From NCBI RefSeq assembly GCF_008033235.1, contig NZ_CP042432.1:2728001-2792000 (forward strand): a DNA stretch of 64,000 bases, in the 5' to 3' direction. Shown here piece by piece: positions 28,816-35,043 of the stretch (positions are counted from its first letter, which is position 1; the number at the start of each line of letters is the position of its first letter). The position numbers were made by a program, and so were the translations under genes. This stretch comes from Anseongella ginsenosidimutans. Lineage in GTDB: Bacteria > Bacteroidota > Bacteroidia > Sphingobacteriales > Sphingobacteriaceae. Under the pieces are notes generated by a model, which searched no databases, was not told the DNA's origin, and saw only the letters and a program-made list of their open reading frames with translations.

Positions 28816-29904
28816 TTGAGTAAAATTGTATCGATAGGAACCGCCCTACCTCCTTACCGCCACAGGCAGGAGGACATCCTGGAATTTATGCTGGAAATGT
28901 ACCAGCCGCCGGAAAAAGACATCCGGAAGATCCGCCTCTTATATGAGAACTGCGGAATTGAAAGCCGTTATTCTGCTATTGCCGATTATTCCGTTTCGCC
29001 GGAAAACTATACTTTCTATCCGAAGGTTCCCCGGGCATCGTCCTTCCCTACGCTTGAAACCCGCATGGACTGGTACCGCCGGCATGCTACCTCGCTGAGT
29101 ATCCCGGCAATCCGGGACTGTCTGCGGAACCAGGTGGATGAAAAGGAACTTACCTGCCTTATCACAGTAAGTTGTACGGGCATGTCCGCTCCGGGACTGG
29201 ATATCAGTATTATCCGGGAGCTGCAGCTTCCGCTTAACATACAGCATACGTCGGTCAATTATATGGGTTGTTATGCGGCTTTGCATGCCCTGAAAATGGC
29301 CGATGCAATTTGCCGGGCGGATCATGGGGCCCGCGTGCTGATCGTTTGCACGGAATTGTGTACCCTTCATTTCCAGGAAGAATACACCATGGACCATATT
29401 ACTTCCAGCCTGCTGTTTGCAGACGGAGCGGCGGCGGTGCTGGTTACCGGCGATGCCTGGCCGGGTAAGGGCCTTGCCTTGTCGCGATTTTATTCCGAAA
29501 TAGCGCTGAATGGTGAGTCTCACATGACCTGGGAACTGTCCGGGAAAGGCTTTCTCATGCATCTTAGTACGCTGATACCCCACCTGGTAAAGGAAAATAT
29601 GCGCCCGCTGTTAAGGCGAGCGCTGCGGGCGGCCGGGGTGGAAGAAAAAAGTATAACCCGCTGGGCCATTCACCCGGGAGGGAAAAAGATATTGAGCAAT
29701 GTCGGCCACTCGCTTGACTTGTCGGAAGGGCAGCTGGCGCCTTCCTATCATGTACTCAAAAACTATGGAAACATGTCATCCCCGACCATTTTGTTTGTGC
29801 TGAAAGAAATAATGGAACAGCTCAACGGCAGCCGGGAAAGAGTATTTGCTGCGGCTTTCGGGCCCGGCCTTACCATGGAAACGCTCATACTTGAATCATC
29901 ATGA
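28816..29904 (+). CDS. Type III polyketide synthase (chalcone/stilbene synthase family)
   Basis: Condenses an acyl-CoA starter with malonyl-CoA units to give pyrones or resorcinols. 362 residues from a TTG start. The thiolase-fold triad is complete: Cys152 (SVNYMGCYAALHALKMA), His286 (RWAIHPGGKKIL), Asn319 (LKNYGNMSSPTILFVL). VSCTGMSAPGLDI and SSLLFADGAAAVLV also match the family. It is the first gene of a + strand operon with a methyltransferase, an FAD oxidoreductase and a UbiA prenyltransferase, a set recalling the srs phenolic-lipid genes of Streptomyces but with a prenyltransferase added. The starter unit cannot be read from sequence. Confidence 0.95.
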   Translation: MSKIVSIGTALPPYRHRQEDILEFMLEMYQPPEKDIRKIRLLYENCGIESRYSAIADYSVSPENYTFYPKVPRASSFPTLETRMDWYRRHATSLSIPAIRDCLRNQVDEKELTCLITVSCTGMSAPGLDISIIRELQLPLNIQHTSVNYMGCYAALHALKMADAICRADHGARVLIVCTELCTLHFQEEYTMDHITSSLLFADGAAAVLVTGDAWPGKGLALSRFYSEIALNGESHMTWELSGKGFLMHLSTLIPHLVKENMRPLLRRALRAAGVEEKSITRWAIHPGGKKILSNVGHSLDLSEGQLAPSYHVLKNYGNMSSPTILFVLKEIMEQLNGSRERVFAAAFGPGLTMETLILESS

Positions 29905-30608
29905 ACCGCTTTGCCCGAAGATCCTGTTTAAGCGAGCTGATCGATGCCCCTGGTATTCCGTTTGCAGAATGGAGTGCCTGCCTGAAGGAACTGGATTTTA
30001 TAAATACCTGGCTGGGAGGACACCGGATAACCGTTGAAGGATTCAAAAAGCTGTTGCCTGCGGATAACGGACGGCTGTCGGTCGCGGAAATCGGCTGCGG
30101 GGGCGGGGATAACCTGAAAGCGATCCATGCCTGGAACCGGAAAAGAAAAAAGCCGCTGAATATTCATTACACGGGCATTGATCTGAACAAAGCCTGTATC
30201 GATTTCGCACGGGAAAATTGCCGGGAACTGCCTTCGGCCAATTTTGTCCACGCGGATTATAGAACGGTTTGTTTCGGCAACCGGCCGGATATTATTTTCA
30301 GTTCGCTTTTTTGCCACCATTTGAGCGATCCTGAATTAAAGCAATTGTTTGACTGGCTGAAGGAAAATGCAGGTGGCGGGTTTTTCATGAACGATCTCCA
30401 CCGCAGTCCGCTCGCTTACCATTCCATCCGGGCGCTTACCCGGCTGTTTTCAAGGTCCTACCTGGTGAAAAACGATGCCCCGGTATCGGTTTTGCGTGGT
30501 TTTAAAAGAAAGGAATGGCAGGATTTACTTGCTGAAGCGGGTATTGGCAGCTATGCTATCAACTGGCGATGGGCCTTCCGTTACCTGGTATCCGTACGGT
30601 ATGAATGA
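29901..30608 (+). CDS. SAM-dependent methyltransferase of the polyketide operon
   Basis: A 235-residue class I methyltransferase. SAM motif I is VAEIGCGGGDNL (61-72), with YTGIDLNKACIDFAREN as motif II and DIIFSSLFCHHLSDPELKQL as the post-II acidic/HH motif, typical of Methyltransf_11/12 proteins. The C-terminal third LLAEAGIGSYAINWRWAFRY closes the fold. It overlaps the PKS stop by ATGA, so coupled translation and action on the polyketide product are likely. The methylated atom (O or C) is unknown. Confidence 0.9.
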   Translation: MNRFARRSCLSELIDAPGIPFAEWSACLKELDFINTWLGGHRITVEGFKKLLPADNGRLSVAEIGCGGGDNLKAIHAWNRKRKKPLNIHYTGIDLNKACIDFARENCRELPSANFVHADYRTVCFGNRPDIIFSSLFCHHLSDPELKQLFDWLKENAGGGFFMNDLHRSPLAYHSIRALTRLFSRSYLVKNDAPVSVLRGFKRKEWQDLLAEAGIGSYAINWRWAFRYLVSVRYE

Positions 30609-31734
30609 AAAAATTCCATATTATGATTGCGCAATCGTTGGGGGCGGTCCGGCCGGCCTTTCCCTTGCTGCCTGGCTGGGTAAGAGGGGATTCCGGGTAG
30701 TCCTGTTTGAGAAAAATAGCTATCCTTTTCATAAAGTTTGCGGAGAATACCTGAGCCTGGAATCCATGGAGAGCCTGCTGGAATTGGGGATGCCCCTTGA
30801 GTCATGGGAGCTTCCCCGTATTAATACTCTTTTCATGTCCAGCCCTGGAGGAACGGCATTTACCCGCCCGCTGAAGCCGGGAGGAGTGGGGCTTAGCCGG
30901 TACCGCCTGGACCAGGCGCTGGCAGCACGGGCAAAAGCAAACGGAGCCCACGTGCTGGAGCAGGCAAAAGTCGGTGCAGTTTTTCAGGAAAACGAGATCT
31001 TTAAGCTGGAAAGCAGCAGGGGAGTGGTGCGGGCCGGAGTGTGCTGCGCCTCTTTTGGCAGGCATGCTAACCTGGACGTGAAATGGAAAAGAGAAGGGCT
31101 GAAAAAGCCGCCGAATTTTATTGGCGTGAAGTATCACGTGCAGCTGGAACGGCCGCAGGACACCATTGAACTACATTATTTTAAAAACGGTTATTGCGGC
31201 ATTTCCCCTGTTGAAGACGGGAAGCATTGTATTTGTTACCTCACCACCGAGAAAAACCTTCGGGAACAGGGAAATGATATCCTCTGCCTGGAAGAAAGAG
31301 TACTGTCTGAAAATCCTTTTCTGCGAAAGGCGCTGAAAGAGGCGGTCCGCTTGTATAAACGGCCGCTGACCGTTTCCCATGTCGGCTTTTCCCGGAAAAG
31401 CCTGATCGAAGATCATGTATTAATGCTGGGCGATGCCGCCGGTATGATCGCTCCCTTGTGCGGTAACGGGATGAGTATGGCGCTGCACAGCAGTAAACTG
31501 GCGGCAGATCTCGTTGCTCAGCACCTGGAGGGCAGTATTTCCAGGGACTCCTTGGAAAAAGCCTATCAAGGCAGCTGGCAATCGCATTTTGCAAGCCGTA
31601 TGCGGTCCGGCCGCCTGATCCAGGACCTTTTCCTGCGGCCGGCGGCTGCCAACGTACTGGTTAAGGCGCTCCGGCCCTTTCCCGCTTTGATCGACTATAT
31701 GGTTAGACAAACCCACGGGCAGCAGCCTTTTTAA
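30601..31734 (+). CDS. FAD-dependent oxidoreductase of the geranylgeranyl reductase/aromatic hydroxylase superfamily
   Basis: 377 residues. The FAD fold YDCAIVGGGPAGLSLAAWLG (8-27) is followed by the acidic end of strand 2 (VVLFEKN). There is a RYRLDQALAARAKANG segment and the second FAD motif LMLGDAAGMIAPLCGNGMSM. The ATG at 30601 was chosen because the Rossmann motif then falls at the N-terminus; it overlaps the methyltransferase by 8 bases. The superfamily includes prenyl-chain reductases and ring hydroxylases. With a PKS and UbiA beside it, ring hydroxylation or side-chain reduction of a prenylated phenol are the likely options. Confidence 0.9.
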   Translation: MNEKIPYYDCAIVGGGPAGLSLAAWLGKRGFRVVLFEKNSYPFHKVCGEYLSLESMESLLELGMPLESWELPRINTLFMSSPGGTAFTRPLKPGGVGLSRYRLDQALAARAKANGAHVLEQAKVGAVFQENEIFKLESSRGVVRAGVCCASFGRHANLDVKWKREGLKKPPNFIGVKYHVQLERPQDTIELHYFKNGYCGISPVEDGKHCICYLTTEKNLREQGNDILCLEERVLSENPFLRKALKEAVRLYKRPLTVSHVGFSRKSLIEDHVLMLGDAAGMIAPLCGNGMSMALHSSKLAADLVAQHLEGSISRDSLEKAYQGSWQSHFASRMRSGRLIQDLFLRPAAANVLVKALRPFPALIDYMVRQTHGQQPF

Positions 31735-31743
31735 TTTACCGTC

Positions 31744-32610
31744 ATGATCCGGAAAAGCACTTTCTTGCTCTTGCGCGTCCCCTTCTCCTTTTTCCTGATG
31801 CCGGTTTATTTTTTTGCACTCAGCCAGGTACCGGAAATTGATTATAGCCGCGCTTTGCTGGTATTTGTGATCCTGCATTTTTTTCTTTACCCGGCCAGCA
31901 ACGGCTATAACAGTTATATGGATCGCGACACAGGGAGTATTGGCTTGCTGAAGAATCCGCCCCCCGCGCATAAGGAACTTTTTTATCTCAGCTTGTTCCT
32001 GGACGGAGCGGCTGTTGTGCTGAGCCTTTTCCTGGGAACGGTATTTACCCTATGCATCTTGGCCAATATTGCCGCTTCCAGGGCCTACAGTTACCGGGGG
32101 ATCCGTTTGAAAAAACTCCCTTTAACCGGTTTTTTTACGGTGATCATCTTCCAGGGGGCGGTCACTTACTTCATGGTGTTTATTGGTTCTTCCGTGAGCA
32201 GAGTGATCCTGTTTCCCTGGGAGGGAATGCTGATCAGCAGTTTGCTGTTCGGTAGCCTCTACCCCTTAACCCAGATATACCAGCATGGGCAGGATCTGGA
32301 GGACGATGTGAAAACCATCAGCTATAAGCTGGGGTACATGGGAACCTTTGTGTTCAGCGCCCTGATGTATCTGCTCGCCGAGACCCTCTTGTTCTTTTAT
32401 TTCGAAAATAGGGCTCAGAGCGGGCAATTCTGGTTGCTTCAACTTTTCTTTTTGCCGGTCATGCTGTATTTCCTTTACTGGTGGCGCAAGGTGTGGCGGG
32501 AAAGAAAGAATGCCAGCTACCGTTACGCCATGCAAATGAACGCGATAGCTGCAACGTGTACCAATATAGGCTTCCTTGTGTTGTATTATCTGAACCACTG
32601 GGTGGCCTGA
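31744..32610 (+). CDS. UbiA family prenyltransferase
   Basis: A 288-residue membrane enzyme with about eight or nine transmembrane helices. The first Asp motif lies in NGYNSYMDRDTGS (Asn53, Asp60, Asp62). The second lies in QHGQDLEDDVKTISYKLG (Asp184, Asp187, Asp188). Both bind Mg-prenyl diphosphate. UbiA enzymes attach an isoprenoid chain to an aromatic acceptor. It lies 9 bases after the FAD oxidoreductase, and the acceptor is probably the type III PKS product. The two motifs vary from canonical NDxxDxxxD/DxxxDxxxD, which may mark an unusual acceptor. Confidence 0.9.
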   Translation: MIRKSTFLLLRVPFSFFLMPVYFFALSQVPEIDYSRALLVFVILHFFLYPASNGYNSYMDRDTGSIGLLKNPPPAHKELFYLSLFLDGAAVVLSLFLGTVFTLCILANIAASRAYSYRGIRLKKLPLTGFFTVIIFQGAVTYFMVFIGSSVSRVILFPWEGMLISSLLFGSLYPLTQIYQHGQDLEDDVKTISYKLGYMGTFVFSALMYLLAETLLFFYFENRAQSGQFWLLQLFFLPVMLYFLYWWRKVWRERKNASYRYAMQMNAIAATCTNIGFLVLYYLNHWVA

Positions 32611-32622
32611 ATATTAAGAACG

Positions 32623-32991
32623 ATGAAAAAGCCAATTGCTTTCTTGTCGCTTGTTCAGGGGCTGTATTACGTAATAACCGGGCTTTGGCCGGTAATAGAT
32701 ATAGACAGTTTCATGATGCTTACCGGCCCCAAAGATGACCGCTGGCTGGTGAAAATGGTCGGGCTGCTGGCTGCTTCCGCAGGTCTCACCCTGATGTACC
32801 AGGCCAGGGAAGGTGTTGGAGCCGCTGCGCGGATCCTAGGCATATCCACCGCCTTCAGTTTTCTGGCCATTGATGTTTACTATGTAATAGCCAGGATCAT
32901 CCCGGTTATTTACCTGGCGGACGCAGCCCTTCAATTAGCCCTGATCGCCTGCTGGCTGCTGTGGGCTTCAGGACGTGCAAGACCCCGTTAA
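32623..32991 (+). CDS. Small four-helix membrane protein at the end of the polyketide operon
   Basis: A 122-residue protein with about four hydrophobic segments (FLSLVQGLYYVITGLWPVID, WLVKMVGLLAASAGLTLMYQ, ISTAFSFLAIDVYYVIARII, ALQLALIACWLLWASG). No family is recognised with confidence. It follows the UbiA gene by 12 bases on the same strand, so it is probably the last gene of the operon. Its 3' end overlaps the convergent PEBP gene by 24 bases. Confidence 0.7.
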   Translation: MKKPIAFLSLVQGLYYVITGLWPVIDIDSFMMLTGPKDDRWLVKMVGLLAASAGLTLMYQAREGVGAAARILGISTAFSFLAIDVYYVIARIIPVIYLADAALQLALIACWLLWASGRARPR

Positions 32992-33406
32992 TACGGCTTC
33001 TTCCAGGATATGCCCGTTCATTTTTTCTTCCACAGCTTCCCGCTCCGATTCCCGCGGAAGGCCCAGCACGATATCCAGTGCATAAAGTCTGAACCAATAA
33101 TGGTGTGTTCCGGAAAAATATTTTGGACAGGGGCCTTCGTAACCGAAGGTGTGATTATTGGAAAGTCCTTCGATCGCGCCGGATGGAATCTTTCCTTCGT
33201 TCACATGGCCGGTTCCCGGGGGATATTGAATACGAGCCAGTGAGTCCAGGCTTTGGGGCGGCATCAATGTCCTCAACGATCAGCACCAGGCTTTGCGTGC
33301 CGGCGGGAATGTCCTTCAACTCCAGCGGAGGGCTGATGTTGGGCCCCAGGCAGGTGTGTGCAGTGGGGATGGCTTCCCCTTCTTTAAATACACTCAGGAT
33401 TTGCAT
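32968..33406 (-). pseudogene. YbhB/YbcL-type PEBP (Raf kinase inhibitor-like) protein, frameshifted
   Basis: The N-terminal piece from ATG 33406 reads MQILSVFKEGEAIPTAHTCL, NISPPLELKDIPAGTQSLVL and IVEDIDAAP, the PEBP ligand-site pattern. The C-terminal piece reads PPGTGHVNEGKIPSGAIEG, NHTFGYEGPCP and HYWFRLYALD in another frame. Between them the third frame shows WLVFNIP, which is the expected linker. Two losses are therefore needed: one base (or four) at about 33237-33244, and one base in the G5 run at 33218-33222. Restored length is about 147 residues. If real, the gene is dead; if consensus error, it is an ordinary small PEBP protein. Confidence 0.85.
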
Positions 33407-33532
33407 ACAATATTTTAACTGGAAGGAAACAAATTCCGGGCCAGGGAAGCATAGGCGCGACAACACCGGCGGCCTCCTTTTGGCATTGTTATGGCCGGGT
33501 TAATTGCCGGAGAGCAGCGAAAAAATGCGAAA

Positions 33533-35043
33533 ATGGATAAGCTTTCAAAAAAGTGGTTTGCCCCCAGCGAAGAGCTTTCTGAAAAACAGGTGAACGCAGG
33601 CCTGAAATTACTGGTGAAAGACGGGCTGGCCGCCGAGGTAATGGCCGCTCTCACCGGCGGTACTTTCCTGGTAGCCCTGGCGTTGAGCCTGGGCGCGTCC
33701 AATTTCCAGATAGGATTGCTCGCAGCTCTCCCCACGCTGGCCAATCTTTTCCAGCTACTGGCGATTTACCTTATTCACAAATACGCAAACAGAAAAGCGA
33801 TCACCGTGATCTGCTCGGTTCTCGCGCGCCTGCCGCTGCTGCTGATCAGCCTGCTGCCGCTTTTTCTTCCCCCAGCCTTGGCCTGGTCCTGCTGATCTCC
33901 CTGCTGTTCATCCATTACTTTTTCGGCGCCGTTTCGGGGACCAGCTGGTCTTCCTGGGCAAAAGACCTGGTACCCGAAGCCGTTCTGGGTACTTTTTTTT
34001 CCGGCCGGAGCCGGAAAATACAGATCTTATCCGTTTCGCTGAACCTGGTCGTTGCCTTCCTGCTGGATTATGTAAAGGCAAACAGGCCGGAATATGTTAA
34101 CCTGGTTTATTCCGCGATGTTCTTTACCGGAGGTGCGGCCGGCCTTTACGGCGCCTATGTGCTGGCTCGTATCCCCGAGCCCAGGATCCATCCGGTAACA
34201 CAGAACATGGTGCGGCTTTTCAGGCGACCGCTCCGGCAAAGGAATTTCAGGAACCTGTTGATATTTAATGGTTTCTGGTCGTTTTCTGTAAACCTTGCCG
34301 CCCCCTTCTTTACGGTTTATATGCTTAAAATGCTGGGGTTCCCGCTTTCTTATGTAGTGATCTTTTCCATCATCAGCCAGGTTTCCAATATACTTTTCAT
34401 CCGCCTTTGGGGAACGTACTCTGACCGGTACAGCAATAAAACGGTACTGCTGATCTGCGCACCGGTTTACCTGCTGTGCATTCTGGGCTGGACCTTTACC
34501 ACGTTTCCCCAACAGCACCTGCTGACCATTCCCTTGCTGGTCCTCATTCACATCGGGAGCGGCATCGCCTTGTCGGGCATTAATCTTTCACTGGGCAATA
34601 TGGGTTTAAAGCTCGCCCCGGATAAACAGAACGCCGTGATCTTTCTTTCGGTGAGAAGCCTTACAAATGCCCTGTCGGCGGGTGTGGCTCCGCTGGTGGG
34701 AGGGCTCCTTGCCGACTTCTTTGCCCGGCGCGAACTGCTCTGGACTTTCGAGTGGAAAAGCCCCCGGGGAGATTATATGGTTCAGGCGCTCAGCCTCCAG
34801 TCCTGGGATTTCTTTTTCGTACTGGCCTTTATCATGGGGCTTTTTGCCCTGAACCGGTTAAGTTATGTACGGGAAGCTGGGGAAGTGGAAAAAAAGCGAC
34901 TGATGAAAGAACTCAGGACCGAACTCAGGAGAGATGCCAGAGAGCTGTCAACGATATCCGGGATCCAGTCTATGCTCTTTCTTCCTTTTTCATTTTTTGT
35001 ATCTGTTATGGAGAAGGTTGTCCCGAAAAAGGAGGGGGATTAA
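33533..35043 (+). pseudogene. MFS transporter, frameshifted
   Basis: The first piece (from ATG 33533, MDKLSKKWFAPSEELSEKQV) covers about three helices (MAALTGGTFLVALALSLGAS, IGLLAALPTLANLFQLLAIY, LLLISLLPLFLPP) and then stops. Adding one C to the C5 run at 33868-33872 gives PPSLGLVLLISLLFIHYFFG and joins the frame holding AVSGTSWSSWAKDLVP, the remaining helices and a basic C-terminal tail. Restored length is about 503 residues. The family is MFS; the substrate is unknown. Its 3' end overlaps the convergent GT9 gene by 38 bases. Confidence 0.85.

Follow-up and report, generated by a model that had tools for sequence, protein, structure and literature searches.

A type III polyketide synthase–UbiA gene set of Bacteroidota that probably directs synthesis of a prenylated phenolic lipid

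What is made by the four tightly packed genes of Anseongella ginsenosidimutans that specify a type III polyketide synthase (PKS), a methyltransferase, an FAD-dependent enzyme and a membrane prenyltransferase of the UbiA superfamily (Table 1)? Judged from the protein families and by analogy with the agq genes of Actinoplanes missouriensis, the product would be a prenylated phenolic lipid, made in a few steps by a pathway that works like agq, and the probability of this reading is put at about two in three. The window referred to below is the whole 64,000-nucleotide stretch of DNA that was analysed. In it the PKS and methyltransferase genes overlap by ATGA, and those for the methyltransferase and the FAD enzyme by 8 bases; the UbiA gene follows after a 9-base gap, and an ORF for a 122-aa protein after a further 12-base gap, with all five ORFs on the same strand. 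For the first four genes the overlaps and the 9-base gap bear out the single tight transcription unit proposed in the initial annotation. A promoter scan at the locus gave matches below chance expectation, and the terminator matches fell mostly within genes. The operon has no gene for a prenyl diphosphate synthase, which counts against the prenylated-lipid reading.

Table 1. Genes of the locus, with coordinates in the window
Feature	Coordinates	Strand	Remarks
Type III PKS	28816-29904	+	362 aa, TTG start; Pfam Chal_sti_synt_N/C
Class I SAM-dependent methyltransferase (MT)	29901-30608	+	235 aa; Methyltransf_25; PRK06202-like
FAD-dependent oxidoreductase/monooxygenase	30601-31734	+	377 aa, ATG at 30601; FAD_binding_3; geranylgeranyl-reductase/UbiH superfamily
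UbiA-superfamily membrane prenyltransferase, divergent Bacteroidota subfamily	31744-32610	+	288 aa; Pfam UbiA; NGYNSYxDRD and YQHxxD motifs
122-aa hydrophobic protein, lineage-specific neighbour	32623-32991	+	ORF; no Pfam match

Is the company that these genes keep more than an accident of neighbourhood? Among 60 relatives 20 genomes have a PKS of at least 40% identity, and strong UbiA profile matches (E < 1e-117) occur in exactly those 20, with one extra, distant match in a further genome (G046), and in an even phylum sample of 198 genomes the 19 with UbiA (E < 1e-87) are the 19 with the PKS (E about 1e-129 or better), all these being counts of related genomes rather than of a given number of independent samples. 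Five of the 19 have the two genes far apart or on separate contigs (G127, G197, G209, G217 and G241), and further unlinked pairs are present in G020, G249 and G250; G020 and the genomes behind loci L106 and L113 are exceptions to adjacency that have their UbiA at another place. Within a single genus one genome (G002) has both PKS and UbiA, and another (G026) neither. Such within-family contrasts, together with the unlinked co-occurrence, therefore favour function over an inherited neighbourhood.

Where the genes are neighbours, their arrangement shows some latitude. The genome collection's best 80 PKS loci are all from Bacteroidota where named, mainly from Chitinophagaceae; in 76 of them UbiA is adjacent and in 70 the order is UbiA>PKS>MT>FAD>; some relatives have the divergent alternative UbiA< PKS> MT> FAD>. 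The UbiA-last order PKS-MT-FAD-UbiA was seen, among the loci read, in the window's own genus only, most relatives having UbiA first or divergent. The four genes are co-located in dozens of genera, and their association is real, being more than chance. Five genes had been expected to co-occur in related genomes; they do so strongly as regards the PKS, methyltransferase, FAD enzyme and UbiA, but not as regards the 122-aa protein.

The prenyltransferase invites closer attention. An 18-member UbiA profile recovered by sequence no solved UbiA from the PDB, its sole match there being at chance level. The AlphaFold2 model (pLDDT 93.4, pTM 0.91) has as its best structural matches in the PDB AfUbiA (Z 22.8) and ApUbiA (Z 22.3), with soluble prenyl synthases scoring about 14, and from the model, these scores and a Pfam UbiA match above cut-off the protein has the membrane all-helical UbiA fold. 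Across 93 family sequences motif I reads NGYNSYxD[RK]D and motif II YQHxxD. Residues R11, N56, D60, Y115, S116, K123 and D184 are kept, their AfUbiA equivalents being R22, N68, D72, Y139, S140, K146 and D202, and N56 and D60 (the motif I Asn and first Asp, which in AfUbiA are the Mg ligands N68 and D72) are present in all 93 rows. The complete NDxxDxxxD form of motif I is absent, its last Asp being G64 in the window and variable in the family; D76 of AfUbiA makes no direct Mg contact (PMC4106721). Absent too is the DxxxD of motif II (D198 and D202 in AfUbiA), which has become QHxxD with D184 kept and the first Asp replaced in practically the whole family by Gln180, or in one alignment by His181, a one-residue doubt that comes from hhalign in a mapping made by eye and by hhalign with deep alignments. 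An ungapped by-eye comparison with the AfUbiA sequence favours Gln180, and hhalign to a single canonical UbiA gave no mapping. The earlier description of the protein as having both Asp motifs is literally correct, in that the window has ‘DLEDD’, but the motif II of the family is YQHxxD and its motif I is without the last Asp.

Could such an enzyme work? The D198A mutant of AfUbiA has weakened prenyl diphosphate binding yet retains it, and even though the equivalent mutation in EcMenA leads to loss of function (PMC4106721), the binding that persists in the former makes activity of a window-type UbiA plausible despite the Gln-for-Asp substitution in motif II. That substitution, and the want of a sequence match to any solved UbiA, nevertheless count against the prenylated-lipid reading. 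On the model and the alignments the protein is a member of a divergent subfamily with a predicted fold, and most catalytic residues, matching those of AfUbiA. The plasmid collection yielded no match to it.

Other UbiA-like genes were met in passing. One, at L140:1204-2103 and in similar places in most relatives, specifies a protein that matches just the later part of Pfam UbiA and is present in nearly every relative. Genomes of family f42 (L152 and L154) carry, away from their PKS, a weaker relative of UbiA with an NSxWDKDEGPIGGL motif; these weaker, unlinked relatives are excluded from the claim of PKS-UbiA co-occurrence. In two genomes (L156 and L160) an unlinked UbiA adjoins a conserved 260-aa methyltransferase-like gene.

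With its chalcone/stilbene synthase domains and Cys-His-Asn triad the first enzyme qualifies as a type III PKS, and the completeness of the triad asserted in the initial annotation holds, C152, H286 and N319 being invariant in a 15-row alignment and kept throughout the wider set. In the PKS tree the UbiA-associated rows, whether linked or unlinked, form one group of 51 (SH-aLRT 82). The putative equivalent of Phe265 of CHS is M248, a match based on the two residues being equally far from the catalytic His rather than on structure alignment; Met occupies it in 107 of 107 UbiA-associated PKS rows and in 24 of 28 rows not associated with UbiA. PMC8086630 reports that the alkylresorcinol clade of HidC has Met at the Phe265 position, and hid-type PKSs from Planctomycetota yield alkylresorcinols in a heterologous host (PMC10896814). 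Because Met is also found in those 24 other rows, M248 is suggestive only, favouring a resorcinol product without proof. Might the PKS instead make alkylpyrones that become O-methylated, with UbiA serving another lipid that just happens to vary together with the cluster? Pyrones are frequent products of bacterial type III PKSs, the best-scoring solved structure for this PKS is the pyrone synthase Pks18 and the UbiA motifs are atypical, but the resorcinol-clade Met points away from pyrones, and the coincidence of the PKS and UbiA genome sets even where the genes are unlinked would be difficult to account for if the lipid were unrelated, so that we consider the combination quite unlikely.

The nearest NCBIfam match of the methyltransferase, PRK06202, is under the curated cut-off; in Roseomonas, Psychrobacter, Planctomycetota and Deinococcus, related PKSs have the same kind of class I SAM enzyme beside them. 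The FAD enzyme scores highest in NCBIfam against the geranylgeranyl reductase family, its 111.8 bits falling short of the 158.8 cut-off. This match would suit a reductase of the prenyl chain, of geranylgeranyl-reductase type, acting after UbiA, in which case there would be no ring hydroxylase and the phenolic lipid would end up with its prenyl tail reduced; the agq product has a dihydrogeranyl group (PMC7692728). The FAD enzyme also matches hydroxylase families, however (QhpG and the UbiH group), and FAD partners stand beside type III PKSs without UbiA both in Bacteroidota (L050-L052, L169, L171-L173 and L177) and on plasmids of Planctomycetota, Roseomonas, Psychrobacter and Deinococcus. The FAD step would therefore be independent of prenylation, and a reductase role is unlikely. 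The PKS of three of these loci, L050, L051 and L052, is of a second type, in the arrangement FAD-MT-PKS, and its neighbours, named by eye, are a dehydratase-like protein, a FabF-like ketosynthase and a phosphopantetheinyl-transferase-like protein.

How novel is the set? The srsABC genes of Streptomyces griseus specify a PKS, a methyltransferase and a flavoprotein, and give methylated, oxidised phenolic lipids; SrsB itself is ICMT-like. The operon in the window shares this PKS, methyltransferase and flavoprotein set, on which an analogy with srs had been based, but the analogy is loose for the methyltransferase: an srs-like Streptomyces locus (L225) has an ICMT-like membrane enzyme, a PKS 29% identical to that of the window and no UbiA found there, whereas the methyltransferase of the window is not ICMT-like but a class I SAM enzyme of the Methyltransf_25 family. 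A closer parallel by description is agqABCD of Actinoplanes missouriensis, which leads to alkyl-O-dihydrogeranyl-methoxyhydroquinones (Awakawa 2011, as cited in PMC7692728, PMC10896814, PMC3227686 and PMC4044012). There, alkylresorcinols from the type III PKS are then prenylated and hydroxylated, with AgqD being a UbiA-like O-prenyltransferase (PMC7692728, PMC10896814, PMC3227686). Here too a type III PKS, methyltransferase, flavoprotein and UbiA-type prenyltransferase are encoded together; the differences are that agq is from Actinobacteria and that the UbiA of the window belongs to a divergent subfamily whose Asp motifs are altered. The initial annotation knew of no characterised pathway with this set in Bacteroidota. 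In the open-access literature searched we likewise found no described Bacteroidota type III PKS-UbiA cluster, but the four-function precedent in Actinoplanes missouriensis had been missed.

The three-gene core has wider relations. In hidABC (for hierridin) of cyanobacteria and in a three-gene operon of Planctomycetota a methyltransferase, an FAD oxidoreductase and a type III PKS are likewise in one operon, though as a rule without UbiA (one Raphidiopsis cluster does have a prenyltransferase) and in a gene order other than that of the window (PMC8086630, PMC10896814). The nearest PKSs outside Bacteroidota, found in the plasmid collection in Psychrobacter, Deinococcus, Paludisphaera and Roseomonas, are 36-39% identical and share their loci with genes for a class I methyltransferase and for an FAD enzyme, but with no UbiA gene; the core therefore resembles a hid-type operon, UbiA being what the Bacteroidota clade has added. 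At the losA locus of Micromonospora endolithica (loseolamycins) a UbiA family protein, a methyltransferase, an acyl-CoA dehydrogenase and a type III PKS are consecutive in the published table, but a role is assigned to losA only, and prenylation is not mentioned for the alkylresorcinols that were isolated (PMC7587189). In plant cannabinoid-type pathways, such as that to daurichromenic acid in Rhododendron, a type III PKS alkylphenol is prenylated by a UbiA-type enzyme (PMC8309193); their other partner enzymes differ, and homology to the operon of the window is not implied. By these comparisons the Bacteroidota cluster is best read as a variant of a pathway type already characterised in Actinoplanes missouriensis, with a pan-bacterial PKS-MT-FAD core.

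In the agq-like pathway that we favour, the type III PKS would use malonyl units to lengthen a fatty acyl starter, then close an aromatic ring to give an alkylresorcinol, the methyltransferase would methylate the ring or a phenolic oxygen, the FAD enzyme would hydroxylate the ring to a hydroquinone or quinone, and UbiA would prenylate the phenol in the membrane, with a prenyl diphosphate as donor. We infer the order of the last three steps, the lengths of the acyl and prenyl chains, C- versus O-attachment, the resorcinol product, the donor and the role. The idea with which the study of this locus began, that a single operon serves to make a phenolic lipid which is methylated, oxidised and probably prenylated, is supported by the protein families and their co-occurrence; what falls away is the small partner protein.

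What would such a lipid be for? The predicted chemistry, hydroquinone, methyl and prenyl, would be like that of lipoquinones, and a redox-active membrane quinone for respiration or antioxidant defence comes to mind. A separate MqnP-like prenyltransferase in the genome, however, is consistent with an ordinary menaquinone route, and the cluster is missing from about two thirds of the relatives and is therefore not essential; a quinone with these roles is thus rather improbable. If the prenylated phenolic lipid is indeed the product, such lipids would be a widespread, overlooked lipid class of Bacteroidota, in Chitinophagaceae and a number of further families, and among UbiA-superfamily enzymes there would be a subfamily with a metal site unlike the textbook motif. 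The four-enzyme set is conserved in many soil and water Bacteroidota, and the Bacteroidota version, with its unusual UbiA, appears unstudied. Cultured carriers include Niastella, Cnuella, Segetibacter, Ginsengibacter and Pinibacter, and so product and function are directly testable.

In 11 relatives (L036, L038, L039, L041-L044 and L046-L049) genes for a PhoR-like kinase and DUF47 (PhoU_div) are directly downstream of PKS-MT-FAD, joined in most of them by a PiT phosphate transporter, and these genes closely follow that for the FAD enzyme (or the methyltransferase). A link of the cluster to phosphate stress is possible, but a lead only, because other genomes have the kinase-DUF47 pair without the PKS, and no DUF47 was found in the window's genome. 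One can go further and envisage a UbiA subfamily with a Gln-for-Asp metal site that evolved with the type III PKS to make, in Bacteroidota, a prenylated product of polyketide origin, either a membrane quinone or a membrane lipid free of phosphorus, and that is in some lineages co-expressed with a phosphate-uptake module; this proposal is unlikely to hold.

The 122-aa protein, a small four-helix protein in the initial annotation and there a possible partner, is rejected as such since it lacks conservation alongside the operon. Neither the same-genus locus nor any of the 80 other PKS loci has it, and 58 of the 59 other relatives lack it, the sole other carrier being a genome without the PKS. Beyond it, at 32968-33466 of the window (minus strand), a gene for a YbhB-like phosphatidylethanolamine-binding protein is seemingly split over two frames, with 33155-33466 matching the first part of the profile only and the ORF at 32968-33276 reading like the remainder; this seems to be a frameshift, a pseudogene or a sequencing error. 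Two MFS-transporter pieces, separate ORFs at 33491-33895 and 34117-35043 (plus strand), together apparently make up one transporter and are likely a second break beside the split YbhB-like gene.
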